The position numbers and the translations under genes were made by a program. Shown here piece after piece: positions 3,109 through 32,817 of a stretch of DNA of 64,000 nucleotides; position 1 is the first letter of the stretch; each line of letters starts with the position of its first letter. The stretch covers positions 1-64,000 of the forward strand of contig CANHRG010000005.1 of NCBI GenBank assembly GCA_947463785.1, in the 5' to 3' direction. This DNA is from Sphingobacteriaceae bacterium (GTDB taxonomy: Bacteria; Bacteroidota; Bacteroidia; Sphingobacteriales; Sphingobacteriaceae). Under the pieces are notes generated by a model, which did no database searches, was not told the DNA's origin, and saw only the letters and a list, made by a program, of their open reading frames with translations.

Positions 3109-3231
3109 AATGTGTTTTTTGGTTCAACACAAAAATTAAGTTAATATCTTGTAAAATCATTTTAAGATATGTGAATTGCGTTTTGTCACGTATTGTAACT
3201 AAAACTGAAATCTGATTAACTAGCCAAAAGT

Positions 3232-3239
3232 TATATTTG
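3232..3239 (+). promoter_or_regulatory. -7 box TATATTTG for the gene at 3259
   Basis: Exact match to the Bacteroidota TAnnTTTG -7 element, 20 bases before the ATG at 3259. No convincing -33 TTG is seen at the usual distance, so the promoter may need an activator. Confidence 0.5.
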
Positions 3240-3258
3240 ATAAGAAACATTATTGATA

Positions 3259-14749: not shown

Positions 14750-15472
14750 ATGTTAAACTTAATGCTTGATGCTTCAACAGCAATCGCTGCTAACAACTAT
14801 GTAGCATTCACATTTTTCATCGGCACGATGGCCATGATGGCCGCTTCCGTGTTTTTCTTCTTTGAGGTGGGCAACACTTCACCACAATGGAGAACCTCAG
14901 TATTGGTTTCTGGTATTATTACCTTCATTGCAGCAGTACACTACTACTACATGAGAGGTTATAACCTAGAAACTGGTGCTTCTCCTATCTTTTTCCGTTA
15001 TGTAGATTGGATTTTAACTGTGCCTTTAATGTGCGTTGAATTCTATCTAATTACCAAAAAAGCTGGTGCAAAATCTAGCTTACTTTGGAAAATGATTTTC
15101 GCTTCACTAGTTATGTTGGTAACTGGTTATTGGGGCGAAGCCGTTGCCAGAGACAATGCTGCTTTCTGGGGCTTAGTTTCAGGTATTGCTTACTTCTACA
15201 TTGTGTATGAAGTTTGGATGGGTGAAGTTGCTAAACTTTCTAAAGCAAGCGATCCTGCGGTTCAAAAAGCAGTGAACTCATTGCTTAAATTCGTTGTAAT
15301 CGGTTGGGCAATTTACCCAGTTGGTTACATGGCAGGTACTGCCGAAGGTCAGTGGTATGCGGCTTTTGGTAACCTGAACTTAGACATGGATATCATCTAC
15401 AACATTGGTGATGCCGTGAACAAAATTGGTTTTGGTTTGGTTATTTATGCGTTAAGCCGTTCTTCTAAATAG
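14750..15472 (+). CDS. Proteorhodopsin/xanthorhodopsin-type light-driven proton pump
   Basis: 240 residues, seven TM helices. Helix C carries the proton-pump triad: Asp86 (acceptor), Thr90 and Glu97 (donor) in RYVDWILTVPLMCVEFYLI, i.e. a DTE motif. His64 in AAVHYYY matches the proteorhodopsin His75 that pairs with the acceptor. The retinal Schiff-base lysine is Lys225 (GDAVNKIGFG). The spectral tuning position (proteorhodopsin 105) is Met94, the residue found in green-absorbing rhodopsins of Bacteroidota. Gly141 occupies the position of bacteriorhodopsin Trp138 and proteorhodopsin Phe152, leaving room for a carotenoid antenna. The genes for lycopene cyclase and retinal formation follow directly. 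A terminator at 15486 lets it be expressed on its own at higher level. Confidence 0.97.
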   Translation: MLNLMLDASTAIAANNYVAFTFFIGTMAMMAASVFFFFEVGNTSPQWRTSVLVSGIITFIAAVHYYYMRGYNLETGASPIFFRYVDWILTVPLMCVEFYLITKKAGAKSSLLWKMIFASLVMLVTGYWGEAVARDNAAFWGLVSGIAYFYIVYEVWMGEVAKLSKASDPAVQKAVNSLLKFVVIGWAIYPVGYMAGTAEGQWYAAFGNLNLDMDIIYNIGDAVNKIGFGLVIYALSRSSK

Positions 15473-15485
15473 GCTTAATTTATCT

Positions 15486-15529
15486 AAAAAACAAAAGGTG
15501 TTCGCTAATTGTGAGCGCCTTTTGTTTTT
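15486..15529 (+). terminator. Terminator or attenuator between rhodopsin and crtY
   Basis: CAAAAGG pairs with CCTTTTG and the stem continues inward with mostly G-T and Watson-Crick pairs (TGTTCGC with GTGAGCG), flanked by A and T runs. It lies 14 bases after the rhodopsin stop and 10 bases before crtY, so some read-through is likely to supply the downstream genes. Confidence 0.75.
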
Positions 15530-15538
15530 ATAAAACCT

Positions 15539-16678
15539 ATGGATCCAAATATTATCATTGTTGGCGGAGGTTGTGCCGGTATGCAGTTGATCTATCAATT
15601 GCTCCAGTTACCTGTTGAACAAACGGGAACCATTCTTCTATTAGAAAGAGCAGCCGAACCTGCAAAAAAATCTTGGTGCTTTTGGTCAAAAGAACCTACA
15701 CTTTACGAGGGCTTAGTTTCTAAGAAGTGGTCTAAAATTAGTTTTGCATCTACCCATAAACAGTTAACGGAATCCATACACCCCTATCAATACAATTACA
15801 TCAATAGCGATGATTTTTTTCAGTTTCACGAACAAGTTCTTCGCGATTCCAATCGAGTAAAACGTGTAAAGGCTGAGGTCAAAGAACTTATTTCAGAAAA
15901 TACACACGTAAGGGTATTGACCGATCAGGGTGAATTCAACGCCAATTTGGTTTACGATAGTCGAATCGAGTTTGACCGCTTACCTGAGTCGGCAAATGTA
16001 TTGTGGCAGCATTTCAAAGGCTTCTTTATTGAAACCAAGGAAGCGATTTTTGATACTGAAACAGCCATGCTAATGGACTTTAGTATTGATCAAGGCGATG
16101 CCGTTCATTTCATGTATGTATTGCCATTTTCCTCCACACAGGCATTGGTAGAGTTTACGGTATTCTCTAAGCTCAGCGCTTACCAGGATGCGGAATATGA
16201 ACGTTACTTGAAAGCCTATATCGACCAAAAATTTAATACCAGTTACAAGATTTTACGGGTAGAGTCGGGTAGAATTCCCATGACTGATTTTAACTTCGGT
16301 TCAGCCGATGATCAGCGTATTCGTTTAATTGGTTCGGCGGCGGGTGCCATAAAGCCCACCACCGGCTATGCGTTTAACCGCATCCGAAAAGACACTCGTG
16401 ATTTGGTCAAATGCCTTGATAATCCTACGTTAGGACCCAGAACAGTATTCCGTAAGAAGAGATTTCGCTTGTACGATAAGCTTTTATTGATGATTATCCG
16501 TGATGAACCACATCAAATACGCCGGGTAATGGAGCAATTGTTTTACAACAATCCGTTTAGGCGTATTCTTGATTTTTTGGATGAAGAATCTTCATTTAGG
16601 CAAGAAATTGCAATATTTAGCCAATTACCCATCAGGTTGTTTTTAAAGCAAGTTTTGAAACATGTTTTCGCTCGTTAA
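15539..16678 (+). CDS. crtY: Lycopene beta-cyclase (CrtY type)
   Basis: 379 residues. The N-terminal Rossmann motif IIIVGGGCAGMQLIYQLL is the FAD/NAD-binding site of CrtY-type cyclases, followed by LLLERAAEPAKKSWCFWSKE with the family's WCFW motif. Further on are MDFSIDQGDAVHFMYVLPFS and VESGRIPMTDF, and an RLIGSAAGAIKPTTGYAF block that is diagnostic. It converts lycopene to beta-carotene, the substrate of the next gene. Its 3' end overlaps blh by 17 bases, showing translational coupling. No phytoene synthase or desaturase genes are in the window, so lycopene is made from genes elsewhere. Confidence 0.95.
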   Translation: MDPNIIIVGGGCAGMQLIYQLLQLPVEQTGTILLLERAAEPAKKSWCFWSKEPTLYEGLVSKKWSKISFASTHKQLTESIHPYQYNYINSDDFFQFHEQVLRDSNRVKRVKAEVKELISENTHVRVLTDQGEFNANLVYDSRIEFDRLPESANVLWQHFKGFFIETKEAIFDTETAMLMDFSIDQGDAVHFMYVLPFSSTQALVEFTVFSKLSAYQDAEYERYLKAYIDQKFNTSYKILRVESGRIPMTDFNFGSADDQRIRLIGSAAGAIKPTTGYAFNRIRKDTRDLVKCLDNPTLGPRTVFRKKRFRLYDKLLLMIIRDEPHQIRRVMEQLFYNNPFRRILDFLDEESSFRQEIAIFSQLPIRLFLKQVLKHVFAR

Positions 16679-17606
16679 ATTAAGTCAGAGATCACAATTA
16701 GTACTAACTGGCTTAGTAGTTTGCACGCTCAATTACCTTTTTCCAATACCCTTACATGTGCAATTGGGAATTTTTGCACTCGGTATTTTAATTACGGGTA
16801 TCCCTCATGGGGCTATGGATCACTTATTGTATTTCAAACAGCACCCCGATGGAAAGCCTTTAAATAAATGGATTCGATTTAGTTCATTTTATCTCGGTTA
16901 TGCGCTACTCTATGGTTTATTGTGGACCATTCACATCCAGCTTGCAATTTTAGTATTCATCGGAATCTCTGCCTACCATTTTGGTGAGCTGGATTTAAAA
17001 GAAATTCTGGTGAGAAATTCGGTAGCAGAACGTCTAATTGCTACAAGCTACGGCTTGCTATTTTTAGTAAATTATTTGTTATTCAGATGGCCTGAGGTTA
17101 ATGAGATTTTGTCCGGATTCCCTGGTTTTAACATCCAAGAGCTCAGTTTCCTAAATGACAGGTATTCCATTAAATACCTTATCATTTCTGCTTCAGCCAT
17201 AGTTGTAATCATGCTCTTGCTTTGTTATTATCTGGTTTACCAAAAACCCTTAAAGCACTTGTTTTATCAACTGTTGCCATTGGCATTTGTTTGTTTCATC
17301 ACGTACCAATTACCTCTATTTCTCGGTTTTGGATTTTATTTCAGTGCCTGGCATTCCATATTATCCATTACCGAGATCAAGGCTGCTTTAGGATGGTCCG
17401 ATCGATCTTGGTTTTATGCACTAAAAAAAACCTGGTTTACCAACTTAGCAGCGTTTCTTTTTATAGGGTCAATGTTCTTCTTTTTTTATGGGGAGTTAAA
17501 CCGAATTATCGCGGTTTTATTCATGTCTATCGCCGTTTTAACCGCTCCTCACATACAGGTAATTTCCTCAATGTTGAGTGCTAAAGCTGCACCTGATAAA
17601 ATTTAA
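16662..17606 (+). CDS. blh: Brp/Blh-family beta-carotene 15,15'-dioxygenase
   Basis: 314 residues, an integral membrane protein with about eight to nine hydrophobic segments. The conserved iron-binding histidines are in GIPHGAMDHLL, SAYHFGELD and FSAWHSILSI, the last two typical of Blh. It cleaves beta-carotene symmetrically into two retinal molecules, the chromophore of the rhodopsin encoded just upstream. The start overlaps the crtY end by 17 bases. The rhodopsin-crtY-blh order makes this a compact phototrophy cassette needing only lycopene from the host. Confidence 0.95.
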   Translation: MFSLVKLSQRSQLVLTGLVVCTLNYLFPIPLHVQLGIFALGILITGIPHGAMDHLLYFKQHPDGKPLNKWIRFSSFYLGYALLYGLLWTIHIQLAILVFIGISAYHFGELDLKEILVRNSVAERLIATSYGLLFLVNYLLFRWPEVNEILSGFPGFNIQELSFLNDRYSIKYLIISASAIVVIMLLLCYYLVYQKPLKHLFYQLLPLAFVCFITYQLPLFLGFGFYFSAWHSILSITEIKAALGWSDRSWFYALKKTWFTNLAAFLFIGSMFFFFYGELNRIIAVLFMSIAVLTAPHIQVISSMLSAKAAPDKI

Positions 17607-17684
17607 AGATCTACCGCCAGATCCTATCGACTAATTACACTTTAGTTGCCCTGTACTATATCACAAACTAGCCTAATTTTTTTA

Positions 17685-17716
17685 TTTGGAATTATTCTAA
17701 ACAAGACTTATGTTTG
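17685..17716 (+). promoter_or_regulatory. Promoter of the TonB-dependent receptor gene
   Basis: TTTG at 17685-17688 (-33) and TATGTTTG at 17709-17716 (exact TAnnTTTG) are 20 bases apart, a textbook Bacteroidota promoter. Transcription would start near 17723, about 35 bases before the ATG at 17759. The receptor is therefore transcribed independently of the retinal genes. Confidence 0.75.
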
Positions 17717-17758
17717 TCGCACTATTTATAATTAGTCTAAATAATGCTACAAGCATAT

Positions 17759-20185
17759 ATGAACAAGCTAGGAGCTGTTTTGCTGATTTTATTCGGCATG
17801 TGGAATCCTCTTTTCGCACAAAGAGCCGGTATACAGGGTGTTGTATTAACGAGTACGAATGAGCCTGTAGTTGGGGCTAACGTTGTACTCAAGGGAACCG
17901 TTAGGGCTGCACAAACCAATGCAAAGGGCGAATATCTGATCAAGGGATTGGTTGCTGGTAAGTATTCCATACTGGTAAGTTATGTGGGTTCTACGAATCA
18001 AACGGCTGAAATAGAACTTTCGGGAAATGAACTTCTTACTAAAAACTTCAAATTGGATGAGCAAGGGCTACTGTTGAATGAAATACGTTTTATAGTAAGT
18101 CGTGGAATTAAAGGAAATGAACATCTGCCAGAATTGAACGATTTCAGTATAAATGCCGGAAAAAAGAACGAGTTAATTAAGCTCGATAACATCAACGCCA
18201 ATCTGGCTATGAACAACAGCCGACAAATATTTGGACGAACACCTGGTATTTCTGTTTGGGAAAACGATGGTTCGGGCATACAATTGGGTGTAGCCTCTCG
18301 TGGATTAAGTCCGAACCGTTCATGGGAATTTAATGTGCGCATGAATGGCTACGACATTACACCCGATCCGATGGGTTATCCTGAAGCATATTACACTCCA
18401 CCAATGGAAGTGGTAGATCGTATTGAGATTGTTCGTGGTGCTTCTTCTTTACAATATGGCCCGCAATTTGGTGGATTAATGAATTTTGTTTTGCGTAAAC
18501 CCGATATCTCTACACGCCTAACGGTAGAGTCTCAAAATACAGTGGGAAGTAATGGCTTGTTTAGTACGTTCAATTATGTGGGTGGTACCGAAGGACGTTT
18601 AAGTTATACGGCTTATTACCAGAAACGCAGGGGCGATGGCTGGAGAGACCATGGTTATTTCAACACCGATCATGCGCATCTTGAATTTAGCTATGCAGTT
18701 TCTAAGAAATTTAAGCTAGGTACAGAAATTACTTACATGAGCACCGAAAGCCAACAACCCGGGGGCTTGACCGATGCCCAATTCAACCAAAATGCCCGAC
18801 AAAGTACACGTAGTCGCAATTGGTTCAGCACACCTTGGTTGGTGCCTTCCGTAAACGCAGAATATGTAGTCAATGCAAAAACTAAACTTAGTTTGAAAGC
18901 TTTTGGAACCATCGCTGAAAGAAACAGTGTAGGCTTTGTGAAAGCCATAACGCAAAACGACGATTTCGGTAATCGTCAGGTTGATAGAGATTTTTACACC
19001 ACCTACGGCTCTGAATTGCGTTTATTAAGCGACTATGAGATTGCCGGCATGAACACTACGCTTGCTGCCGGTTTAAGATATTTCAGGGGTCACATTGATC
19101 GCAAGCAACAAGGCCAGGGAGATTCTGCTACGGAGATGAATTTCGAGCTGGCTTCAGGTAATTACCCTCGTGATCTGGACTATGTTAACCTCAATAAGGC
19201 CGCTTTCTTGGAAAATATCTTTCGCATCAACGATAAACTATTATTTACCGGTGGTTTGCGTTTGGAAAATATCAACTCTACTATTGATGGCCGTTTTAGC
19301 GTGGTAAATGGACAAGCTACTAATTTGCCCACTACCACCCGTAAGCGTACATTTTTACTTTTTGGTGCCGGAGCCGAGTACCACATTAGTCCAACTACCG
19401 AATTTTACTCCAACATTTCACAGGCCTATCGTCCGGTCTTGATATCTGATTTAACCCCACCCGCCACCACAGATGTAATTGATCCAGACTTGTCAGATGC
19501 TCGTGGATATAATTTCGATTTTGGCTACCGAGGTAAGGTGAGTAATTATCTGAATTTTGATATCGATTATTTCTACCTCAACTATTCTAATCGTGTTGGA
19601 ACAATTACCAAGCTGGATGCCAATGCACAAACGTATCAGTATAGAACCAATTTGGGTGCTTCAGTAAGTAAAGGTTTTGAAGGTTATGTAGAGTTTGACC
19701 CTATTGCCGCACTATTCAAACAATCCAGATTCGGCTACCTGAGTTTATTTGCCTCAGTCGCTTTTATTGACGCTACTTATCGCGATTTTCAAACCACTAC
19801 CGTAAGCAATGGCCAATTGGTAACAGGCAACTTAGCCGGCAAATGGGTAGAAAATGCGCCTAGAAATATTCATCGATTTGGAGCTACGTACAGCTATAAA
19901 GGTTTTTCAGCTACCTGGCAATTGAGTGCAATTGGCAAAGCCTATGCCGATGCTTCGAATACTAGTACTCCAAATGCAGCTGCTACCACCGGATTAATTC
20001 CGGGCTACCGAGTACAAGATTTATCTGCCAGTTTTAAATTTTGGAAAAACTACAATCTTAAGGCCGGTGTGAATAATTTGGGTGATGTTCGATATTTTAC
20101 CCGCAGGGCGGGCGGCTACCCAGGTCCAGGAATTATGCCTGCAGACGGACGTATTTTTTACCTCTCGGCAGGTATTAAGTTTTAA
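17759..20185 (+). CDS. TonB-dependent outer-membrane receptor, FecA-like
   Basis: About 808 residues from ATG 17759, chosen because it gives a clean signal peptide (MNKLGAVLLILFGMWNPLFAQ); an upstream in-frame ATG at 17744 adds five residues. Next comes a carboxypeptidase-regulatory-like beta domain (GVVLTSTNEPVVGANVVLKGT to SYVGS), then the plug (NINANLAMNNSRQIFGRTPG, IEIVRGASSLQYGPQFGG) and the 22-strand barrel. FECA-like features are VLISDLTPPATTDVIDPDL and the closing YFTRRAGGYPGPGI. It likely imports ferric siderophores or ferric citrate. No SusD partner, sigma factor or anti-sigma gene is adjacent. It follows blh by about 150 bases with its own promoter. Confidence 0.92.
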   Translation: MNKLGAVLLILFGMWNPLFAQRAGIQGVVLTSTNEPVVGANVVLKGTVRAAQTNAKGEYLIKGLVAGKYSILVSYVGSTNQTAEIELSGNELLTKNFKLDEQGLLLNEIRFIVSRGIKGNEHLPELNDFSINAGKKNELIKLDNINANLAMNNSRQIFGRTPGISVWENDGSGIQLGVASRGLSPNRSWEFNVRMNGYDITPDPMGYPEAYYTPPMEVVDRIEIVRGASSLQYGPQFGGLMNFVLRKPDISTRLTVESQNTVGSNGLFSTFNYVGGTEGRLSYTAYYQKRRGDGWRDHGYFNTDHAHLEFSYAVSKKFKLGTEITYMSTESQQPGGLTDAQFNQNARQSTRSRNWFSTPWLVPSVNAEYVVNAKTKLSLKAFGTIAERNSVGFVKAITQNDDFGNRQVDRDFYTTYGSELRLLSDYEIAGMNTTLAAGLRYFRGHIDRKQQGQGDSATEMNFELASGNYPRDLDYVNLNKAAFLENIFRINDKLLFTGGLRLENINSTIDGRFSVVNGQATNLPTTTRKRTFLLFGAGAEYHISPTTEFYSNISQAYRPVLISDLTPPATTDVIDPDLSDARGYNFDFGYRGKVSNYLNFDIDYFYLNYSNRVGTITKLDANAQTYQYRTNLGASVSKGFEGYVEFDPIAALFKQSRFGYLSLFASVAFIDATYRDFQTTTVSNGQLVTGNLAGKWVENAPRNIHRFGATYSYKGFSATWQLSAIGKAYADASNTSTPNAAATTGLIPGYRVQDLSASFKFWKNYNLKAGVNNLGDVRYFTRRAGGYPGPGIMPADGRIFYLSAGIKF

Positions 20186-21032: not shown

Positions 21033-24000
21033 ATGAAGAAACTTTTACCCATTGCGTTTTGGTTATTCTCACTGTCTTTGGTTTTTGTAACTCATAGTCT
21101 ACTTGCACAGCGTGTAACTCGTGATCAGTACAATACCATATGGGAACTGATGGAGCGGAAAGATCTACGATTAGAGGATATCGATCGCCAGGCGGAGGAG
21201 TATTTCAACCAAGTTGGTAAAGAAAGGGGTACGGGTTATAAGCAGTACCAACGCTGGAAATACGAACAGCAGTTCCACTTGGATAGCAAAGGGTACATAT
21301 TACCAGATGATTTCGATAAAAAAAACTATGTAGCGTCATTGTCCGAAACTCCAACTCAGCCTGCTGCTATCGACTCGTGGTCATGGACGGAACTGGGCCC
21401 CAGCTCTTGGAACAGAACCAGCGGCTGGAATCCGGGAGTTGGAAGAATTACCTCCATTGCAGTTTCGCCTGTAAATCCAAATATCATTTACATTACTTCG
21501 CCAGGTGGAGGAGTTTGGAAAACAACTCAAGGTGGAGGTCAATGGATTCCACTAGCTGAATACGACAACAGTATGATGAGTACCTATGCTGTTGCCGTAC
21601 ATCCTACCAATCCCAATCTAGTTATTGTGGGCAAAACAAATGGTCAGATTGCCAAAAGTATTGATGGAGGGTCGAGCTGGAATGCCTATAACTGTCCCGT
21701 TGGTGTGGTCTATAAAATTCTATTCAACAAAGACAATCCTGATAACATTTTTGTGGTGGGAAGTGCTGGGATTTGCAGATCTACCGATGGTGGTGACACC
21801 TTTACACTTAGGTCTAGCACACGAGCAGAAGATATTGAATTTCAACCGGGTAGTACAGGGGTAATGATTGCCTCCGGTTCTGTTATTCAACGTTCCACCA
21901 ATTTCGGTGAAACCTGGGTTACTTTAGGGGCTGCAAATGGTATAACAACCAGTGCCCGAACATTAGTTGCTGTTTCTCCTGCTAATCCTCAGGTGGTATA
22001 TGCTGTCCAAGCTAATGGGAATGTTTTTGGCAGAATGTACCGATCAGATGATGGAGGCAACACCTTTATAACTACGGTAATTGGTGATCCGGCTGCCGGT
22101 ACAAACTTTTTCGGTTACGAAACCAATGGAAGAGGAACTACTGGACAAGCTGGATACGATATGGCGATGACAGTAAATCCGAATAATGCCAATGAAGTGC
22201 ATATTGCGGGTATTATTTGCTGGAAGTCCACAGATGGTGGGTATTCATTTGTGCCAACAACTGCTTGGTCTTTACCCAACTCAGTAGGGTACAATCATGC
22301 CGATGTGCATGTGTTGGAATGGCTAGGGAATACCATTTATTCCGGATCGGATGGAGGTATTTACAAGAGCACCAATTACGCAGAAGATTGGGTAGACCTC
22401 ACTAGCGGTTTAGGTATCCGCCAGTTTTACAAAATAGCCATATCTGCAACAAATCCGGAATTAGTTACGGGAGGTGCTCAAGATAACGGCTCAAGCATTT
22501 TGAAAGCTAACGGTTGGATTGATTGGCTGGGTGCTGATGGTATGGATTGTGTGGTCAGTCCATTAGATGCCAATATCATTTGGGGTACCAGTCAGAACGG
22601 GGGTATTTATCGAACAGATAATGGGGGATTGTCCTATCGAGGCCTACCCAGGCCAAACGAGGGGAACTGGGTTACTCCCTTGGCACAAGAGCCCAATTCT
22701 AATGTAATTTACGGAGGATGGCAAGGGGTTTACAAATCCACAGATTTAGGTGCTTCATGGACCAAACTTTCTGGAAACACCATAACAGCTAAGCTGAGCG
22801 TACTAGCGGTAGCTCCATCCAATCCACAATACATTTATGCTTCTACCGGACCAGTACTTTATGTTACTACGGATGGCGGCACTAATTGGACTACGTATTC
22901 GCTAACTAGTATTAATATTTCATCTATCACGGTTCATCCAACAATACCCACTAAAATTTGGATCACCAACACGAACAGTGCATCTCCTGTACTCGTGTCC
23001 ACTAACGCTGGTTCTTCATTTACTAATTTTTCAAATGGCTTGCCTACAATGGCGGCCAGGTCTATTGCTATAGATGATACACCCGAGGGGGGATTGTATG
23101 TGGCCATGAACATTGGGGTGTATTACATCAATACCAAAATGTCTTCTTGGTTAAACTTAACCAAGAATCTCCCACTTGTGGCTATTAATGATATTGAATT
23201 GCAGAAATTAACCCGGAAAATTAGAATTGCAACTTACGGAAGAGGCGTTTGGGAAGGCGCCATGTTTAACGCTTGTGGCACACCCGGTTATGTAGAGGCA
23301 AGTATTCAAGCGAGTGGATCTACATCTTTATGTGAAGGCAGTTCGGTTACGCTTACAGCTAGCAGTGCAAGTAGCTATTTATGGTCTAACGGAGCAACAA
23401 CGCAAAGCATTGTAGTCAATCAATCGGGCAACTATGCTGTCACGCTCACAAACATTATTGGTTGCAGTGCTACTTCAGCGCCCATACAGGTAACGGTTAA
23501 TCCATACCCTACAGCAAGCATTACCAACCTAGGCTCCAAAACGATATCGGTCAACCAGACCGCCACCTTAAGGGCAAATGCAGGGGTAAATTTTACTTAC
23601 CAATGGTTTAAAAACGGAACATTGATTAATGGCGCATCCAGCAGTTCTTATATTGCAAATACTGCAGGTCGTTATACGGTACAGGTGGCTAATAGCTTTG
23701 GTTGCAGTATCCTTTCAGCTGTTGAAGAATTGACTTTTATGTTGCCTGCGAATAATTTCAATGTACAATTGGTTGGCGAAACATGTCGAACAAGCGATAA
23801 CGGAAAGGTGAGCATTAGTGCCATCCAGAACTTAAACTACACCGCCACATTAACAAGGGCAGGACAGACCGTTAAAACTGCAAACTTTAATACCACTGCT
23901 GAACTTAGTGGTCTAGCAGCTGGCAACTATTCACTCTGCATCACTGTAGCTGAGCAAACAGATTACAAGCAATGTTACGATATATTGATTACTGAGCCTC

Positions 24001-24446
24001 AAGATCTTTCGGTTAATTCAGAAATAAATCTTGTAAATAACACAGTACAATTAAACATGTCTGGAAGCGATAGCTATGTTGTAAACCTAAACGGCAAAAA
24101 CTACACCTCAACTAGTTCGGTAATGAGTTTGGCCCTACAAGCCGGCTTAAATAAAATTACAGTGAGTTCAGGAAAAGAATGCCAAAGTACCTACACTGAA
24201 GAAATTTACCTGAGTGAGTTGGTAGAGGTGTATCCGAATCCGTTTAATTCCATTTTAAATATCAAAATCAAGAACCAGGAGAGCAAAAGTTTGAACGTCA
24301 AAATTCTAAATGGAGCCGGGGCGCTAATGTACGAGGGCGTTAATATGGTGCAAAACAATTTAGTAAGTCTGGATTTAACCAAATTAGAAAATGGGTATTA
24401 TTTTGTGGTAATCGGAAAAGAAAAATTTAAAGTAATCAAGAAATAA
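21033..24446 (+). CDS. Large T9SS-secreted Asp-box beta-propeller protein
   Basis: 1137 residues with a signal peptide ending SLLAQ. Residues about 120-745 contain at least ten Asp-box (BNR) units of the type S-DGG-W (KSIDGGSSW, RSTDGGDTF, KSTDLGASW, TTDGGTNW), as in sortilin/VPS10 and sialidase propellers. An Ig-like segment follows (CEGSSVTLTAS to VTLTNIIGC), then a second one. A module of about 150 residues starting NNFNVQLVGETC is shared with the protein at 25513. The end (VEVYPNPFNSILNIKI to KVIKK) is a type A T9SS sorting domain, so it is released or anchored at the cell surface. The propeller may bind or cleave glycans or exoproteins. No catalytic residues can be assigned. Two genes in the same direction follow. 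Confidence 0.9.
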   Translation: MKKLLPIAFWLFSLSLVFVTHSLLAQRVTRDQYNTIWELMERKDLRLEDIDRQAEEYFNQVGKERGTGYKQYQRWKYEQQFHLDSKGYILPDDFDKKNYVASLSETPTQPAAIDSWSWTELGPSSWNRTSGWNPGVGRITSIAVSPVNPNIIYITSPGGGVWKTTQGGGQWIPLAEYDNSMMSTYAVAVHPTNPNLVIVGKTNGQIAKSIDGGSSWNAYNCPVGVVYKILFNKDNPDNIFVVGSAGICRSTDGGDTFTLRSSTRAEDIEFQPGSTGVMIASGSVIQRSTNFGETWVTLGAANGITTSARTLVAVSPANPQVVYAVQANGNVFGRMYRSDDGGNTFITTVIGDPAAGTNFFGYETNGRGTTGQAGYDMAMTVNPNNANEVHIAGIICWKSTDGGYSFVPTTAWSLPNSVGYNHADVHVLEWLGNTIYSGSDGGIYKSTNYAEDWVDLTSGLGIRQFYKIAISATNPELVTGGAQDNGSSILKANGWIDWLGADGMDCVVSPLDANIIWGTSQNGGIYRTDNGGLSYRGLPRPNEGNWVTPLAQEPNSNVIYGGWQGVYKSTDLGASWTKLSGNTITAKLSVLAVAPSNPQYIYASTGPVLYVTTDGGTNWTTYSLTSINISSITVHPTIPTKIWITNTNSASPVLVSTNAGSSFTNFSNGLPTMAARSIAIDDTPEGGLYVAMNIGVYYINTKMSSWLNLTKNLPLVAINDIELQKLTRKIRIATYGRGVWEGAMFNACGTPGYVEASIQASGSTSLCEGSSVTLTASSASSYLWSNGATTQSIVVNQSGNYAVTLTNIIGCSATSAPIQVTVNPYPTASITNLGSKTISVNQTATLRANAGVNFTYQWFKNGTLINGASSSSYIANTAGRYTVQVANSFGCSILSAVEELTFMLPANNFNVQLVGETCRTSDNGKVSISAIQNLNYTATLTRAGQTVKTANFNTTAELSGLAAGNYSLCITVAEQTDYKQCYDILITEPQDLSVNSEINLVNNTVQLNMSGSDSYVVNLNGKNYTSTSSVMSLALQAGLNKITVSSGKECQSTYTEEIYLSELVEVYPNPFNSILNIKIKNQESKSLNVKILNGAGALMYEGVNMVQNNLVSLDLTKLENGYYFVVIGKEKFKVIKK

Positions 24447-24464
24447 ACTTCAACACATCATATA

Positions 24465-25391
24465 ATGCGGATTAAGAACTTACTTTTGCTCATTTTATTA
24501 GTTCCTTTTAATTCGGTTTTTGCTCAGCTGCCGCAAGTTAGCTCTGGCAAGATTCACCGTTTTGAAAACTTTTCATCCAGTTATGTGCCAGCTAGAACTG
24601 TTGATGTTTGGTTACCGGCAACTTATAACAGTTCAAAAAAATACGCTGTGCTTTACATGCACGATGGGCAGATGTTATTTGATGCTACCACCACCTGGAA
24701 TAAACAAGAGTGGGGAGTGGATGAGGTAATTACCCGTTTAATCGAAGAAAATAAAGTAAATGATGTTATTGTGGTAGGTGTTTGGAATGGCGATAAACAA
24801 AGACACCCCGAATATTTCCCTCAGAAACCTTTCGAGACACTCCGTCAGGAACAAAAAGATACGATATACAAAGCAGCAAGAGCTAATGGTTTTTCAGTGT
24901 TTAACGACTACCCTATCAATTCGGATAATTACTTAAAATTTTTGGTTAAGGAACTTAAACCCTTTATTGATCAACAATTTTCGACCTATCGGGATAAGAA
25001 GCACACCTTTATTGCAGGTAGTAGTATGGGTGGACTCATTTCGATGTATGCACTTTGTGAATACCCTAATGTTTTTGGTGGGGCGGCATGTTTGAGTACC
25101 CACTGGCCAGGAATTTTCAGCATGGATGGGAATCCGATTCCTCAAGCATTTATTAATTACCTGGATAAGAACCTGCCAAACTTAAGATCGCATAAAATTT
25201 ACTTTGATTATGGCGACCAAACACTGGATGCGCTATATCCACCACTTCAACATCAAGTGGATGTGTTAATGAAGACGAAGCCGTATTCTTCAACCAACTG
25301 GATGACTCGTTTTTTCGCCGGACAAGATCACAGTGAAAAATCGTGGCGGTCAAGGTTGGATGTTCCCTTGCTTTTCTTGCTGGGGAAATAG
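24465..25391 (+). CDS. Exported alpha/beta-hydrolase esterase (esterase D / Fes-like)
   Basis: 308 residues with a signal peptide ending NSVFAQ. The fold markers are RTVDVWLPATY, AVLYMHDGQMLF (oxyanion region), FIAGSSMGGLISMY with nucleophile Ser187 in a GxSxG, and FAGQDHSEKSW with the catalytic His; the acid is likely in YFDYGDQTLD. Family members hydrolyse feruloyl or acetyl esters on glycans or siderophore esters. It starts 18 bases after the T9SS propeller gene and likely shares its transcript. A role on acylated glycans in the periplasm or at the surface is inference. Confidence 0.88.
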   Translation: MRIKNLLLLILLVPFNSVFAQLPQVSSGKIHRFENFSSSYVPARTVDVWLPATYNSSKKYAVLYMHDGQMLFDATTTWNKQEWGVDEVITRLIEENKVNDVIVVGVWNGDKQRHPEYFPQKPFETLRQEQKDTIYKAARANGFSVFNDYPINSDNYLKFLVKELKPFIDQQFSTYRDKKHTFIAGSSMGGLISMYALCEYPNVFGGAACLSTHWPGIFSMDGNPIPQAFINYLDKNLPNLRSHKIYFDYGDQTLDALYPPLQHQVDVLMKTKPYSSTNWMTRFFAGQDHSEKSWRSRLDVPLLFLLGK

Positions 25392-25512
25392 AGCTACTCA
25401 GCTGCTGAAAAGTTGCTGAATAATAATCGATTAAGAGCCTTATTTAAAATTAAAACCTATAACTTTAAATTATAATTTGTTTGTGAATTAAAGCAAACAG
25501 ATCGGCAATATC

Positions 25513-28500
25513 ATGCTTAAAAAACTAGCTCTTTTAACTTGTTGCTCCCTAATTAGCTTAGCTACTTATGCCCAATCTACGTTCTCTGTATATGTTAGTG
25601 GAATTAAACAGACAGATTCAGCCCTGATTATTATTCAGCAGAGTTCGCTTTCAAAGCAACAAAAATGGGCTAAGTATGTTGCTGGTCAACCTACAAAAGT
25701 AGATTTCCAACTTTCGAGTGGTAAATATGCCTTAGTTATAGACGCTAAGGGTTACAGCTTTCCATCAGCAACGTATGTGAATATACCTGAACAAAGCTCT
25801 GCCAATGTAAGCCTAACCCAATTGCTGAATTCAGACTTTAAATATCAGTGGAGAGACGATGAAAGTTTTGCTGGACATGCAACACAAACGTATAGAAATG
25901 AGCCTTCTACACTGAAAGTGCTCAATACTACGCTAAAAGTCCCATCAGATTATTCCTCAATTAAGCTTCGCAATGAATTTGGAATTGTGCTCTCCAACGA
26001 CAATGAATATTGGTCAAGCGAAGATAGCTACAGGTTATACACTGTACTTAAAACCATTCCTTTTAACCCCTTCGGGGAGGGTACTCTAATCGATTTTGAA
26101 ACTGGTAAAAATGTGCAGGCTGTATTTTATCTTACCAAATCAGAGCAAGCCAAGGATCTCAGCATACAAACCGTAGGTGGTATCAAAAAGGTAATTATTA
26201 GCCAAAGTGCTTTCACTTATGCAAGTGCGTTTACGGGTAACTTGGATGGCATAAAAGTGAAATTTTACTCAAAGCGATTGCATCATGCCATGCTCAATTA
26301 TTTTACAGATTTTGGATCGAATAGAGAGCAGGTTGACCGTATTGCCAGTGAACGTTACGGGGTTAGGTTTATGCTCCCGAATCAGGAAACCCAACAATTA
26401 ATGAAAGAAGATGCCTCTAATTTTCAGGAGTTTTTTGATGAAGAAAAGATTAACATTCTTTCCATGTTTGAAGAGCTTCCTGAGGGGTTTCACAAACAAG
26501 AAGGCTTAAAATACTTGGTTAGAAGAATAAATGGGCAAGACCACCCAATTTATAAAACTGCCGCTGCAATTGCTTGGACTGGTAATCATACGATTGAGGT
26601 TATGAGCAAGGCATTCAACCAAACGGAAATAAATAGTGTACAACGTTTGATTTTGCACGAGAAATCACATTTTCTTTGGGCTTACTCCTTTGATCAGAAA
26701 CTTAGAGACGATTGGGCAACCTTGGGTGGATGGTTTAAAGATCCGACCTCGGTATCGGGTTGGTCCACTTCTAATACAACAGAGTTTGTTTCAGCATATG
26801 CGCACCAAAAGAACCCGGATGAGGATATGGCTGAAACCATTGCAGCATACGTCAACAATCCAGATATTCTACTTTCTCGTTCAGTAAGAAAATACGAGTT
26901 TGTGAGAGATAGGGTAATGCATGGAACCCGTTACAAAGCTCAAATTAGAGAAGATCTCACTTTTATGGTGTACAATTTGTATCCCGATTACATTTACCCT
27001 GGGAAAATTGTTGGAGTTAACATTAGTGTTAAAGGAGCAGCAGATCAGGATAAAGAAGTTACCCTTGAGTTCAAATTGAATTCTAAACAGCCTACGCTGG
27101 ATGGAGCCTCTGTAGGTTATGTGAGATTGGCTTCAAATATTGGCACCATTCACGACTTTTGGTTACATCCGAAAAATGGATCTGTTGATTCGATCTTGGT
27201 TGGCACAAGCACGTTTAGTAAGCACGAGAAAAATGGGTATTGGAATATCGTTTCTTTACGAATCGAAGATCCTGTAGGTAATTCGAGATACGAAAACACC
27301 TCAACCATTGGCTTTAAGCTCTACATCGAAAATCCGCTTGAAGATATTCAGCCTCCAAAATGGAATTACAACTTGAAAATGGAGTTAACCAAAGCCAAAT
27401 TCGCTGATGGCCAAAATTCCATAAATAATACAAACGGAACAGAGATGAAGGCGGTTAAATACAGCTATAGCCTTTACGACAATAGCCCTTTACATAGAGC
27501 CATAACCCGAATTTATTATCCTAAGTTAGACAAGCCTAACGTTCAAATTTATGAAGAACAGATTCAGGGACCACCGGTAGTTGATGCTGCCAGAAACTTT
27601 TCAAATACGTATAACTCTAACAAAAACTTTGAGATGTTTTTTGCTGTACCCGAATATTTCCCTTCAGGGTATTATAGTGTTTCCATGTTAAACGTGCAGG
27701 ATATAGCGAATAATTATACTACCGTAAACTTTATGAAGGATACGGCCAATTACACCATACCTGATTATTTAAAAGATAATGGGCTTTATAAAGATAGTAG
27801 AGATAGTATTTATGTAAGCACCACATACCCCGATTATATTGCGCCAGAGGTTGATGTAAATAGAATTCGGGTTGTGGCAACTCCTACCAATCCTACTGAG
27901 CCCGATGGAGAAACCAGGGTTGATATTTCGCTCTTAGCCAGAGACCTTTCAGATTTTGCAGGGCGTGAAGCCGGAGTTAAACACATAGGCTATACCCTCA
28001 GAGATCCTTTGGGTAAAGAACATTCTTTTTCTAGCTGGAATGACAATAGTTTGTTTAACTATTACAGCATTAAACCAGATGGAACTTCCGAGTGGAAACC
28101 CGTGAAATTAGACATCGTGTTGCCTAAGGGTTCAACGCCCGGAAAATGGGGAATATCTTCCATTCAAACGCTCGATAGAGCAGGCAATTTTAGAAACTAT
28201 TCTTTTGTAGAAATAGTACGTTTTGATGTGGTTGAATCGGATGTCGTTCTCGACAAACCATTGAAAGCTAAAATCCTCAATAAATTTGTGAATAAAAGTA
28301 CTGTCGACTCGATCAGCGCTAGTATAAGTTGTGTGCCTTGTCAGGGTAAAAAATTTGTATATCAAATTTACAGTTTGATGGGCGGCAATGTGTCAAGAGG
28401 AGAAGGGGTATTGGCTCAGGATTCAACCGTAATCAAAAACATTAGCCTAAATGGTGTTTTAGATGGTGTAATCTACCTTACAGTACAGGTGTTGGATGAA

Positions 28501-29748
28501 AGCGATCAGCTAATTGCTACCACCACCACTACTTATGCAAAAGATACCACATTGCCCAAAGCATATTATCTGAGAACCAATCTCCAGGATCAAGGCTATA
28601 GTAATTTAGATAACTTGGTGATCAAGGTTGTAGTACAACCTTCAGACATCAAGGGTACCTATAATTTGCAATTTGCCAATTTTTCGAGTACATCAAGCAG
28701 CCAAAACGGCAAGTCGGTTCAAGCCATCAGTCAACTATTACTGAAAGGAACCTTAACGGATAGTTTGGTTACGATAAGTAATATCAGACTAAATGATTTA
28801 GCCGATGGTATTATTGAGGCACAGCTTTCCATTGTTGATTCAAGCCAGAATGCCGGTACCACAGAATCGTATTATTACTATAAAAAAGCAGGTCAAATTA
28901 AATACCTTGGCAAACAATTGCTAGATACCGATGGAGATAGTGTTTATGATTTTATAGACAATTGCCCAAGTCAGAAAAATATTGACCAGGCGGATCTGGA
29001 TAAGGATAATGTGGGAGATGTATGTGACAACGATATTTTCCCGCTCCCATCTAATAACTTCCAAATTTCATGTACCGGAGAAACTTGCAAGACCAGCGAC
29101 AACGGTATAATTAATGTAAAGGCTGAAAATGCACTTAATTATACGGTTAGTTTACTGAAGGCGGGTACACTCGTCAATACGTATTCATTGACCAATACGC
29201 TACAGTTAACGGGTCTTGCTGCTGGCAAGTATACACTTCAATTCAATATTAATGGTAAGCAAGTCAGAAATTACTCGTACGATGTACTGGTAACTGAACC
29301 GCAAGATCTGTCTGTGTATACATTGGTTAATCCAAGTACCAATACAGTAGACCTATCCATGTCGGGTAGTGAAAATTATCGTATTAACCTAAATGGGAAA
29401 ACCTATCAAACCTCCTTACCAAACCACAACTTGCCACTTAAAAACGGGTTGAATAAACTAGTAATACAAGCTGATAAAGATTGCCAAGGCACCTATGAAC
29501 AAGAGATCTACATTAATGAAAAGGTGCTGGTTTACCCCAATCCATTTACAGATCGACTGACTATTAAAATTGACGAAACTGCAGGGCAGTTATTGCAAGT
29601 GAACATCCTCGATTCATCGGGCTTAACCGTTTACAAAGGGACCTATTCAGTTAAAGATGAGTTGCTACAACTGGATTTAAGTGAGCTAAAAAGTGGGCTC
29701 TATTTTATGGTAATCGGTAATTATACCTACAAGGTATTTAAGAAATAA
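25513..29748 (+). CDS. Giant T9SS-secreted putative zinc metallopeptidase
   Basis: 1411 residues with a signal peptide ending ATYAQ. At residues 382-386 is HEKSH (an HExxH zinc motif) in RLILHEKSHFLWAYSFD, and downstream DEDMAETIAAYV offers Glu441 as third ligand; both lie in a peptidase-like region (about 340-460). Residues about 480-1130 look like repeated beta domains. A thrombospondin type 3 calcium-binding stretch follows at about 1138-1175 (DTDGDSVYDFIDNCPSQ). Then comes the same module as in the 21033 protein (NNFQISCTGETCKTSDNG to TEPQDLSV), and a type A T9SS sorting domain at the end (VYPNPFTDRLTIKI to YKVFKK). The protease function is inferred from the motif only. It has its own terminator at 29752. 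Confidence 0.85.
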   Translation: MLKKLALLTCCSLISLATYAQSTFSVYVSGIKQTDSALIIIQQSSLSKQQKWAKYVAGQPTKVDFQLSSGKYALVIDAKGYSFPSATYVNIPEQSSANVSLTQLLNSDFKYQWRDDESFAGHATQTYRNEPSTLKVLNTTLKVPSDYSSIKLRNEFGIVLSNDNEYWSSEDSYRLYTVLKTIPFNPFGEGTLIDFETGKNVQAVFYLTKSEQAKDLSIQTVGGIKKVIISQSAFTYASAFTGNLDGIKVKFYSKRLHHAMLNYFTDFGSNREQVDRIASERYGVRFMLPNQETQQLMKEDASNFQEFFDEEKINILSMFEELPEGFHKQEGLKYLVRRINGQDHPIYKTAAAIAWTGNHTIEVMSKAFNQTEINSVQRLILHEKSHFLWAYSFDQKLRDDWATLGGWFKDPTSVSGWSTSNTTEFVSAYAHQKNPDEDMAETIAAYVNNPDILLSRSVRKYEFVRDRVMHGTRYKAQIREDLTFMVYNLYPDYIYPGKIVGVNISVKGAADQDKEVTLEFKLNSKQPTLDGASVGYVRLASNIGTIHDFWLHPKNGSVDSILVGTSTFSKHEKNGYWNIVSLRIEDPVGNSRYENTSTIGFKLYIENPLEDIQPPKWNYNLKMELTKAKFADGQNSINNTNGTEMKAVKYSYSLYDNSPLHRAITRIYYPKLDKPNVQIYEEQIQGPPVVDAARNFSNTYNSNKNFEMFFAVPEYFPSGYYSVSMLNVQDIANNYTTVNFMKDTANYTIPDYLKDNGLYKDSRDSIYVSTTYPDYIAPEVDVNRIRVVATPTNPTEPDGETRVDISLLARDLSDFAGREAGVKHIGYTLRDPLGKEHSFSSWNDNSLFNYYSIKPDGTSEWKPVKLDIVLPKGSTPGKWGISSIQTLDRAGNFRNYSFVEIVRFDVVESDVVLDKPLKAKILNKFVNKSTVDSISASISCVPCQGKKFVYQIYSLMGGNVSRGEGVLAQDSTVIKNISLNGVLDGVIYLTVQVLDESDQLIATTTTTYAKDTTLPKAYYLRTNLQDQGYSNLDNLVIKVVVQPSDIKGTYNLQFANFSSTSSSQNGKSVQAISQLLLKGTLTDSLVTISNIRLNDLADGIIEAQLSIVDSSQNAGTTESYYYYKKAGQIKYLGKQLLDTDGDSVYDFIDNCPSQKNIDQADLDKDNVGDVCDNDIFPLPSNNFQISCTGETCKTSDNGIINVKAENALNYTVSLLKAGTLVNTYSLTNTLQLTGLAAGKYTLQFNINGKQVRNYSYDVLVTEPQDLSVYTLVNPSTNTVDLSMSGSENYRINLNGKTYQTSLPNHNLPLKNGLNKLVIQADKDCQGTYEQEIYINEKVLVYPNPFTDRLTIKIDETAGQLLQVNILDSSGLTVYKGTYSVKDELLQLDLSELKSGLYFMVIGNYTYKVFKK

Positions 29749-29751
29749 AAA

Positions 29752-29791
29752 TACCAGCTATCGGATATACACATGATAGCTGGTAAAAATT
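29752..29791 (+). terminator. Terminator after the giant T9SS protein gene
   Basis: TACCAGCTATC (29752-29762) pairs exactly with GATAGCTGGTA (29775-29785), loop 12 bases, followed by AAAATTTT. It lies directly after the stop codon. Confidence 0.7.
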
Positions 29792-30013
29792 TTCATAGGT
29801 AGATGAAAATGATTTGAAATTAATCCGTTTGAAATAGCGGTTTAAGTTTCTAAGCAGTATGTTCTTTTCTTTACACTAAAGATCAGCCTTTCTAAACTAA
29901 ATACCGCTCAATAATTGTGTGAATCGAGTGATTTCACCTATTTTCACTTATTTTTCTGAACAACTAAGAATTATATTTACTCAACTACTTTTTGAATTGC
30001 TTTTTGAGAATAT

Positions 30014-31351
30014 ATGAATATAAAGTTCAAGTTTTTATTGGTACTGCTTTTTACCATTTGTCAAATTTTAAAACTTGATGCAAAATCGAGAGAGATTAGG
30101 TGGTTTGATTATAAAACCGCTCTTAGAAGAAAAATCAACATTGATACGTACGAATTAAAAGCCGAATACCAAGCAGGCAAATGGATTACAGTTGGCAAGG
30201 TAAACGTAGACCCACTGGCGCTTAAAGATCTGCCATTAGGTTTTGTAAACAGTTATTTTCATACGACTAATGACAGTCTCATTTATTTCACCATTTTTGG
30301 AACAGGTCAGGTGTACGAATTTGAACCAAAAACCACTACACTCAAGCGGATTGATCAGACCTATTACAGGGGGTATAATTTTGGCTCCATTCCGTTTAGT
30401 CGAAAAGGTAAGTTGTACTCTGCAGGTGGCTACGGATTTTGGCATTATTCAAATGTGATCACTTCCTTCAATTTTGATAAAAAGGAATGGGATGCAGTAA
30501 TCCCCGAAAATGCAGGTCCGGTAGTAATTAATGAATACGGATTTAACGGTTATTCAAGGAAAGAAGATGTATTTTATTCAGGAGCAAGCGCTAACGAAAA
30601 TCTATTTTCAGATCTAAAGCTTTATCGAATTAAGCAATTCTTTAAATACGATTTCACAAATCAACAATGGACCGAACTTGGTTCGATTAATGAAGATTTA
30701 TTAGCCGAGGATTCCAGAGAAATTTATTGGAATGGTACTTATTTTCTCCAGTGGGCAAATAATAAACTCTACATCATTGACCCCGTAGCTAATGAAGTTT
30801 ATGTCTATAAAAACAATGAACGTTTCTTTGTAACCAATAAAGAGTATTTCAGTAAAGGAGATACGATTTACAACTATTGGAGCGACGATAATGGTGGTTT
30901 GGAGTACTTCTCGGTAAAGGAATACCTTAAAAATGCAGCGTATATTGGCCCATTTTATAGTAGTGGTATTCCCTGGTACAATTTTGCAATTGGCGGTGTT
31001 TTCGTTTCTTTAATTCTAGGCGGCTTGGCCTATAACAGAAGAGCAAAAGTTGCTGTGAAGATTCAACTAAACAAATTTGAGAGAGAATTATTGCATGCAT
31101 TGCTGGTAAAAAAGCCCGGTGACTTTTTAACCACACTGGAAATCAACGAGATTTTAAGCTTAAACGCCAAGACTATGGAGAATCAGCGCCGCATTCGCAC
31201 AAACGTTATCAATCAAATCAATAGCAAAATTTTAGATGTGTTTAATATTGCAGATGCTATTGAACGAGAAGCATCGGCAGAAGACAAGCGAGTTATTTTG
31301 TATCGTTTAAAATCTCAGATCTACGAGTTACTCGATTCAAAATCCATCTAG
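30014..31351 (+). CDS. Second membrane-spanning propeller-like / HTH-like protein (paralogue of 3259-4611)
   Basis: 445 residues with a signal peptide near residues 1-24. The exported domain carries the same markers as its paralogue (GTGQVYEFEP, RGYNFGSIPFSR, GGYGFW). One TM segment lies at about 321-343 (NFAIGGVFVSLILGGLAY), followed by a cytosolic tail of about 100 residues: KFERELLHALLVKKPGDFLTTLEINEIL, then ENQRRIRTNVINQINSK and a charged end. The tail reads as a helix-turn-helix/winged-helix-like fold with conserved ENQR-IR-I-IN. It resembles an outside-in one-component sensor but no family name can be given. It stands between the T9SS cargo genes and a lipoprotein gene. Confidence 0.75.
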   Translation: MNIKFKFLLVLLFTICQILKLDAKSREIRWFDYKTALRRKINIDTYELKAEYQAGKWITVGKVNVDPLALKDLPLGFVNSYFHTTNDSLIYFTIFGTGQVYEFEPKTTTLKRIDQTYYRGYNFGSIPFSRKGKLYSAGGYGFWHYSNVITSFNFDKKEWDAVIPENAGPVVINEYGFNGYSRKEDVFYSGASANENLFSDLKLYRIKQFFKYDFTNQQWTELGSINEDLLAEDSREIYWNGTYFLQWANNKLYIIDPVANEVYVYKNNERFFVTNKEYFSKGDTIYNYWSDDNGGLEYFSVKEYLKNAAYIGPFYSSGIPWYNFAIGGVFVSLILGGLAYNRRAKVAVKIQLNKFERELLHALLVKKPGDFLTTLEINEILSLNAKTMENQRRIRTNVINQINSKILDVFNIADAIEREASAEDKRVILYRLKSQIYELLDSKSI

Positions 31352-31416: not shown

Positions 31417-32817
31417 ATGAAAAACAAATTTCTGTCGACTGCCATCTTAGGATGTATCGGATTACTGATTAGTGCATGCAGTACGAGTTCTAAAATTGCA
31501 GCCTTAAAACCAGCTGCCAATTACAGTACCGACATCGTTTACAATAAGCAAGAATCATACTTAAGCCTGCCTTTAGAAATCCAAGTGGCCGACCTGCAAA
31601 ATCAAACCAACAAATACTTAAATGGATTGATTTATGAGGATCAGGTTTTAGAGGATGATAACGTGATGCTGAAGGTTTGGAAAGAAGCACCTATTCTTAT
31701 TCAGGAAAATAACGGCAAGTTGGAAATGCAGTTGCCTTTAAAGGTGTGGGCCAAGGTGCGTTACGGTATAGATAAATTTGGTTTTTCTGTTTACGATACC
31801 CGTGAGGTTAACCTCAATGGCATTATCAAGTTAAGTTCGGGTGTGAGTGTTCAGAATTGGAAACTGGCTACCGCTACCCAAATTCAGGATATTGATTGGG
31901 TAGAAAGTCCAAGTATCGTAATTGCCGGCAAAAACATCCCCATTACTTACCTTATTAATCCGGTTTTGCCAATTTTTAAAGGCAAACTATCCAGAAAAGT
32001 AGACGAGGCTATTGCCAAATCATTTGATATAAAACCTTATGTTTTTGATGCCTTAGATCAGCTGAGTAGACCTGTTCAGGTTAATGAGGATTATAAAGTT
32101 TGGTTGGGAATTCAACCCATAGCTTTGTACGCTAGTCCTACTGTTTTGGCGAATAAAAAAATCAGTTTTACAATGGGCATGAAAGCCTATTTAGAAACTT
32201 CTGTAAATGCCCAGCCTACGCTAAAGTTCGATAAAACCAAATTGGCTTTACAATCTGGACTTATGGCATCAAATGATTTTAAAGCAAGCGTTGCCAGTGT
32301 AATCACGTATGCAAATGCAGCAGCATTGATGCAAAAAAACTTTGCAGGTCAGAAGTTCGAATCAGGTAAACGTTCAGTTACCATTACCAAAATTGATTTA
32401 TGGGGTAAAGATGGACAATTGATTGTAGCGCTAAGTATGATTGGATCGGTAAATGGCGATTTTTACCTAAGCGGAACGCCAAAATACAATGCTGAGAAAA
32501 AAGAAATTTACCTCGATGGCGTAGACTTTGTATTGGATTCAAAAAACAAATTACTCAAAGCGGGTGATTGGTTGGCTCATGGTCTAATTGCGCAAAAGAT
32601 TCAGCAGAGCTGCTCATTTTCGATTGCCGACTACCTGAATAATGGTCAAAAAACTATGGCTTCTTACTTGAGCAATTACCAACCTATTAAAGGCGTTTAT
32701 GTAAATGGGCAAATGACGGAGTTAATTCCAGATCAGATTACTTTAACCCCACAAGCCATGGTGGCCATGATTGTGGCAAAGGGTAAAGTAGCTATTAAGA
32801 TTGATGGCTTGGATTAG
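31417..32817 (+). CDS. DUF4403-family lipoprotein
   Basis: 466 residues. The SPII signal ends in lipobox LISAC with Cys21. The protein reads as two related halves of beta-rich repeat, with SYLSLPLEIQVADLQNQTNKYLNGLIY at the start and a second unit around KISFTMGMKAYLE to FDKTKLALQSG. This resembles DUF4403 proteins, which have a lipid-binding-like (BPI/TULIP-like) organisation. The molecular function is unknown. It lies 65 bases after the sensor-like gene on the same strand and converges on the CotH-like gene with one base between them (32817/32819). Confidence 0.75.
   Translation: MKNKFLSTAILGCIGLLISACSTSSKIAALKPAANYSTDIVYNKQESYLSLPLEIQVADLQNQTNKYLNGLIYEDQVLEDDNVMLKVWKEAPILIQENNGKLEMQLPLKVWAKVRYGIDKFGFSVYDTREVNLNGIIKLSSGVSVQNWKLATATQIQDIDWVESPSIVIAGKNIPITYLINPVLPIFKGKLSRKVDEAIAKSFDIKPYVFDALDQLSRPVQVNEDYKVWLGIQPIALYASPTVLANKKISFTMGMKAYLETSVNAQPTLKFDKTKLALQSGLMASNDFKASVASVITYANAAALMQKNFAGQKFESGKRSVTITKIDLWGKDGQLIVALSMIGSVNGDFYLSGTPKYNAEKKEIYLDGVDFVLDSKNKLLKAGDWLAHGLIAQKIQQSCSFSIADYLNNGQKTMASYLSNYQPIKGVYVNGQMTELIPDQITLTPQAMVAMIVAKGKVAIKIDGLD

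Follow-up and report, generated by a model that had tools for sequence, protein, structure and literature searches.

The SusR-like regulators of Bacteroides consist of a periplasmic sensor, a transmembrane part and a cytoplasmic DNA-binding domain (PMC3878776). SusR acts as a local activator of polysaccharide-utilisation genes, and its predicted binding sites are direct repeats 67-77 bp apart (PMC3878776). Transmembrane regulators have been counted by means of known DNA-binding domain models, and a survey of them mentions neither kelch nor propeller (PMC10269533). In the open-access literature we found no description of a kelch-winged-helix family. Here we describe such a family, starting from a stretch of 64,000 nucleotides of a Sphingobacteriaceae genome (the window), which carries two of its genes:

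30014-31351, + strand: family member, 445 aa from ATG, with signal peptide, kelch propeller, transmembrane helix and winged helix; predicted transmembrane one-component transcription regulator
3253-4611, + strand: first copy, 452 aa, same architecture

The two proteins are paralogues with 28% identity, and the motifs GTGQ, RGYNF, GG-GFW and NQR-IR-I-IN-K are present in both, as the preliminary description of the locus had claimed for copies of low identity. It had counted two copies. Both are real; the genome (1.81 Mb, 15 contigs), however, holds four full copies and, as fifth family locus, a degraded remnant (C3:222698-222847). The E-values of the full copies, 1e-48 to 1e-304, argue for homology and not chance. 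The named motif positions are mostly invariant or nearly so also in the other two full copies; in the copy on contig C4, GSQR replaces GTGQ and AGYNF replaces RGYNF.

Protein architecture and relation to known regulators

An alignment of 51 members served as input for an AlphaFold model of the 30014-31351 protein, which reached a mean pLDDT of 89. In the model a signal peptide is followed by a beta-propeller, a helix (residues 321-344) and a small helical domain. The parts were assigned as follows:

30014-30079, + strand: signal peptide, residues about 1-22 (helix 3-18 in the model, hydropathy peak 3-21)
30086-30928, + strand: kelch-type beta-propeller, predicted periplasmic, residues 25-305 (VIA-align Z, Kelch Pfam models, entropy)
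30974-31045, + strand: transmembrane helix, residues 321-344, Lys/Arg-rich on its C-terminal side (model, hydropathy)
31067-31336, + strand: winged-helix domain, predicted cytoplasmic, residues 352-441, no Pfam model (pLDDT 94.7, structure matches)
31175-31243, + strand: recognition helix, residues 388-410, carrying NQR-IR-I-IN-K (AlphaFold model, alignment)

The propeller was matched to kelch domains of the PDB at VIA-align Z values of 12.6-15.3. Pfam kelch models match most of the 51 members, the window protein itself scoring below the gathering cut-off. Double-glycine kelch repeats and the propeller fold, the two marks of the kelch beta-propeller superfamily, were both found. GTGQ, RGYNF, GG-GFW and EW fall in the most conserved stretch of the propeller (residues 95-160), and entropy in the family alignment is low at residues 101-150. 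At the position of the transmembrane helix a hydropathy peak is seen in 48 of the 51 members, with Lys/Arg C-terminal of the peak in nearly all. From this positive charge we predict a cytoplasmic winged helix and a periplasmic propeller.

A separate model of the last 90 residues gave a winged helix (pLDDT 94.7) with the order helix, helix, recognition helix and beta wing. Its best structural matches, at Z 8-9.5, include CosR, PhoB, MepR/MarR proteins, ArlR, DrrB, ToxR and CadC. The tail motif maps to the recognition helix, where Q391 is kept in 48, R395 in 50 and N403 in 47 of the 51 members; the earlier argument that its conservation speaks for a function was right. Also borne out was the assignment as propeller, transmembrane segment and HTH-like domain, which can now be specified as a kelch propeller, one transmembrane helix and a predicted winged helix. 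The predicted sensor, transmembrane and DNA-binding domains lie in one chain, as in a transmembrane one-component regulator. Pfam searches with the window protein and the 51 members returned kelch models alone, leaving the tail domain without a match, and a search of NCBIfam returned no family for the protein. As modelled, the protein appears to be a membrane-spanning gene switch with its sensor outside and its DNA-binding domain inside.

The overall order and topology are those of SusR. SusR, however, has a Reg_prop/Y_Y_Y propeller and another DNA-binding domain, whereas the family combines kelch and winged helix. The genome encodes a protein of SusR layout of its own (962 aa, Reg_prop/Y_Y_Y, GerE domain), to which the family showed no profile similarity with hhalign (probability 3%). 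Membership in the SusR-like regulators was rejected on this value and since Reg_prop/Y_Y_Y is not among the listed Pfam matches of the 51 members. ToxR and CadC are likewise membrane-integrated one-component regulators with the same winged-helix fold (Z 8.0-8.3), but there is no sequence match, and the family carries its DNA-binding domain C-terminally and its sensor N-terminally. As ToxR has an N-terminal cytoplasmic winged helix and a C-terminal periplasmic domain, the reversed order led us to reject membership in the ToxR family. The OmpR/PhoB response regulators also have the winged-helix fold (PhoB Z 9.1, ArlR 8.6, DrrB 8.4); here the assignment was rejected because the family protein has neither a receiver domain nor a Pfam match to Trans_reg_C. 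The sensor fold is like that of kelch propellers of the KLHDC, LZTR1 and galactose-oxidase type (Z up to 15.3), whereas the family is bacterial, membrane-anchored and fused to a winged helix. The family is filed as a new transmembrane regulator family, a member of neither the SusR-like nor the ToxR/CadC regulators.

About 50 relatives retain the layout of signal peptide, propeller, transmembrane helix and winged helix. Members were found in named genomes of, among others, Sphingobacteriaceae, Cytophagaceae, Emticicia, Aquirufa, Arcicella, Cryomorphaceae and Chitinophagaceae. The tail domain occurs in 15 of the 395 genomes of the phylum that were searched, extending to other classes, and every matching protein that was read has the order kelch, transmembrane helix, winged helix. 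Within the Sphingobacteriaceae 11 of 101 genomes have the gene, among them all six of the window's genus; the better genomes of this genus, which are small, contain 3-5 copies. The family tree comprises several paralogue groups. The Cytophagaceae copies L044 and L046 nest among those of Sphingobacteriaceae, a placement that suggests transfer between lineages. In a distant relative (L096, 1-3282) two propeller-type family units share one reading frame of >1090 aa, possibly a fused tandem.

An operator-like site upstream of family genes

When the upstream regions of the non-redundant members were scanned without bias for four-plus-four dyads, GTGA-N11-TCAC came out on top (10 regions, compared with 0.0 in dinucleotide shuffles), alongside TCAC repeats with a 10-bp period. 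The aligned site is GTGTGAaTnacGTntTTTCACATATTTTcAC, an inverted repeat GTGAAT-N-TTCAC plus TTTCAC repeats, and in many divergent members its centre is situated about 55-98 bp 5' of the start codon. In the window the sites and the boxes downstream of them are:

29917-29947, + strand: predicted operator GTGTGAATCGAGTGATTTCACCTATTTTCAC, inverted repeat GTGA-N11-TCAC plus the 10-bp direct repeat TTTCACCTAT/TTTCACTTAT
3169-3199, + strand: predicted operator of the first copy, ATGTGAATTGCGTTTTGTCACGTATTGTAAC
29972-29979, + strand: -7-like box TATATTTA, 47.5 bp from the operator centre
3232-3239, + strand: -7 box of the first copy, TATATTTG, 55.5 bp from the operator centre

The site is a compact inverted repeat, unlike the direct repeats of SusR, and its 10-bp direct repeat resembles tandem OmpR-type sites. 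The core site was found in 15 of 60 family upstream regions compared with 5 of 501 other genes (p 5e-12); several of these five control matches precede FG-GAP or other large surface genes near a family gene, and some reflect shared divergent regions. Exact-core sites are present in about a quarter of the upstream regions, and 20 of 45 Bacteroidia members score above 15 bits with the weight matrix, which was trained on these regions. No site was recognised in many Cytophagales and in all Balneola-like members. A site was recognised in about half of the Bacteroidia members, so different ones may serve other subfamilies.

In the window the relaxed form of the site occurs four times, a number reached by none of 100 shuffles (mean 0.49), and the two matrix matches above 12 bits each lie in front of a family gene. 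The whole genome contains 12 distinct relaxed sites, of which five are located at the five family loci, no more than 120 bp away. Two of these five, at the dnaA-linked copy (where the site comes after the family gene and before the next gene) and at the remnant, had been absent from the motif derivation. The reversed control pattern reached a total of 13 in this genome compared with 15 for the relaxed site; consequently, the signal lies in location and not in count. For a stricter form, with palindromic sites counted twice, the six genomes of the genus (9.5 Mb together) gave 19 matches, a rate of 2.0 per Mb with 0.42 for the control pattern. The 90 genomes of the same family that lack the gene (391 Mb together) gave 89 matches, a rate of 0.23 per Mb with 0.20 for the control pattern. 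The site is about nine-fold enriched in the genus with the family gene compared with the gene-less genomes (p 2.5e-12). Outside the training set 12 distinct sites were found compared with 2.2 expected (p 3e-6; 9e-4 on the genus control rate), and sites precede paralogues that have nothing else in common nearby. Architecture, family, motif, position and the link to the presence of the family are computed observations.

The degraded copy (G000 C3:222654-222847; L123 3655-3850) has an intact palindromic operator-like site. This site precedes a gene for an SH3-type membrane protein, and in genome G047 the relative of this gene follows a family gene.

Most core-site members have a TAnnTTT(G/A) box downstream of the site; TAnnTTTG is what we take to be the -7 element of Bacteroidota, and the boxes are consensus matches in AT-rich DNA. 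The operator centre lies 45.5-47.5 bp from the box in some clades and 54.5-55.5 bp in others. These two distances are about one helical turn apart, as would be expected if an activator touches the polymerase from one face of the DNA. A protein bound this far upstream of the -7 box (about 46 or 55 bp) would most likely be an activator. A Sigma70-type promoter scan was uninformative.

Gene neighbourhoods in the window and in relatives

Next to the family gene the window contains:

25513-29748, + strand: T9SS cargo protein (Por_Secre_tail), a neighbour and not a predicted target
29752-29785, + strand: terminator-type hairpin at the end of the T9SS cargo gene, before the family gene
31417-32817, + strand: DUF4403 lipoprotein gene, 65 bp downstream of the family gene, predicted same transcript

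The neighbours are those of the preliminary description, two T9SS cargo genes upstream (21033-24446 and 25513-29748; sorting domain PF18962, E 7e-12 and 6e-12) and DUF4403 downstream (E 1e-126), with an esterase gene (24465-25391) between the cargo genes. The hairpin is strong, with a stem of 12 bp (-17.5 kcal/mol, z -7.7), and a short A/T-rich stretch comes after it. The promoter regions of the T9SS cargo genes of the window contain no operator-like site. For these two reasons the cargo gene is regarded as a separate unit. The site at 29917-29947 precedes the family gene, and DUF4403 follows on the same strand after a gap of 65 bp in the window and 9 bp in the orthologues. The closest orthologues (L037 and L038, 69% identity) have DUF4403, CotH and ClpS-like genes downstream. 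Their loci contain no T9SS cargo; a rhodopsin gene is located divergently upstream. Consequently, the cargo adjacency is particular to the window genome and DUF4403 is the conserved partner. The window has genes for Bac_rhodopsin, lycopene-cyclase-like and Brp/Blh-like proteins and a TonB receptor at 14750-20185, and from the divergent rhodopsin gene of L037/L038 the block appears to have been rearranged in the window genome.

In relatives, FG-GAP surface proteins adjoin family genes in 9 of 94 cases compared with 6 of 430 elsewhere (p 3e-4), with varying orientation; in a Pfam tally they account for 10 of 101 adjacent genes and 2 of 101 distant controls. The T9SS sorting family accounts for 5 of 101 adjacent genes and is outside the 25 most frequent families among the 101 distant control genes, and with a home-made CTD profile T9SS cargo was found in 3 of 90 genes at offset one compared with 1 of 230 far away. 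This enrichment is suggestive, not decisive. At L119 a CHU_C-type T9SS cargo gene with PorP/SprF is divergent from the family gene and shares its operator region; at L040-L042 and L076, too, T9SS cargo genes are divergent and adjacent. Secreted proteins, as called by a crude predictor, are in modest excess among divergent upstream neighbours (16 of 24, p 0.013). The neighbourhoods of the distant Balneola-like members have no common partner. In relatives, the genes with a site in front include those for FG-GAP proteins, CHU_C cargo and two large proteins, one with NHL repeats and one with PKD repeats. In the window's genome a polysaccharide cluster contains a glycosyltransferase-4 gene with a site 88 bp upstream.

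Several further arrangements were observed. The same operator-like sequence is found in two species before a NusG-like-SLBB/Poly_export-Wzz exopolysaccharide operon (L140 6455-6478, L141 6758-6781). In five Flavobacteriales loci (L069, L070, L072, L073, L078) the family gene lies inside the phenylacetate (paa) operon, with paaD or paaC on one side and an enoyl-CoA hydratase gene on the other; L072 and L073 have GTGA/TCAC repeats just upstream of it. At L043 (7941-10821) two tandem family genes are 214 bp apart with one site each. One chromosomal slot is occupied by a family gene in three species of the genus (L006 9877-11232, L118 7933-9249, L119 7451-8779); its flanking genes are 58-90% identical, the family copies are non-orthologous and their partners differ. 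In the window genome a phage-type integrase gene adjoins the copy in that slot.

Proposed mechanism, alternatives and implications

The protein is probably a membrane-integrated one-component regulator whose winged helix binds the sites and activates its own and adjacent genes; we infer site binding by the family protein, activation, topology and ligand sensing. The periplasmic kelch propeller would sense an envelope or extracellular ligand, and the signal would cross the membrane through the single transmembrane helix. The cytoplasmic winged helix, as a dimer or in tandem, would then bind GTGAAT-N(5-7)-aTTCAC sites and extra TTTCAC half-sites. Once bound, the regulator would most likely activate its own gene and adjacent genes, in the window itself and DUF4403. 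Paralogues and relatives may drive other local genes via the same site type, often those for surface proteins (FG-GAP, T9SS cargo with PorP/SprF) and exopolysaccharide operons. The overall role would be that of a locally acting, autoregulating transmembrane activator.

The preliminary description had proposed that the gene senses surface glycans or proteins and controls its neighbours. Control of neighbours is directly supported by the operator-like site at family loci, and the conserved partner of this copy is the downstream DUF4403 gene. We consider it improbable that the protein, as a sensor of envelope signals, regulates the T9SS cargo genes next to it (21033-29748), despite their adjacency and real sorting domains: their promoter regions lack the operator-like site, a terminator hairpin follows the cargo gene, and the cargo is absent from the orthologues with 69% identity. 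The association of family members with T9SS cargo expected there did not hold in the window's genome, where only one of the four full copies adjoins any of the 10 sorting-domain genes; it was found in relatives, with divergent cargo next to the family gene at L040-L042 and L076 and, at L119, an operator in the region shared with the cargo gene.

The family protein might bind the site as a repressor; autoregulation by repression is common. The operator end can come close to a -33 region, but the helical phasing and the distance of 45-55 bp from the operator centre to the downstream -7 box fit an activator better, which makes repression rather unlikely. The GTGA/TCAC half-sites at family loci resemble CRP half-sites, and another global regulator, for instance of the CRP/FNR type, might own the operator with the family genes merely co-regulated. 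The spacing of 9-11, compared with 6 for CRP, the clustering of sites at family loci with unrelated neighbours, the pseudogene locus included, and the absence of a site excess in relatives without the family gene leave this with little probability; the site could also belong to another regulator found together with the family. Very improbable is that the palindromes are recombination or mobile-element sites tied to mobile family genes. The integrase next to one copy and the non-orthologous copies in one slot of three species would agree with it, whereas a distance and phase relative to the -7 box that stay constant, and the conserved distal site before the exopolysaccharide operon, would not.

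A wider reading is tentative, and in our estimate somewhat less probable than its opposite. Family genes might be exchangeable cassettes across the phylum, each with its own operator-promoter and surface-gene partner, swapped in one slot across sister species, and a single operator code might define an adhesin, T9SS cargo and exopolysaccharide regulon read from the membrane.

The family spans several orders of Bacteroidota and is expanded in small genomes. As its DNA-binding part has no Pfam model, Pfam-based surveys would probably miss it. The matching DNA site predicts that the regulator controls itself, its neighbours and, in related species, genes for surface proteins and polysaccharides. 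As the sequence itself reveals the operator, the regulon should be predictable genome by genome, and this prediction would offer a route to how these bacteria choose the surface proteins and polysaccharides that they display.
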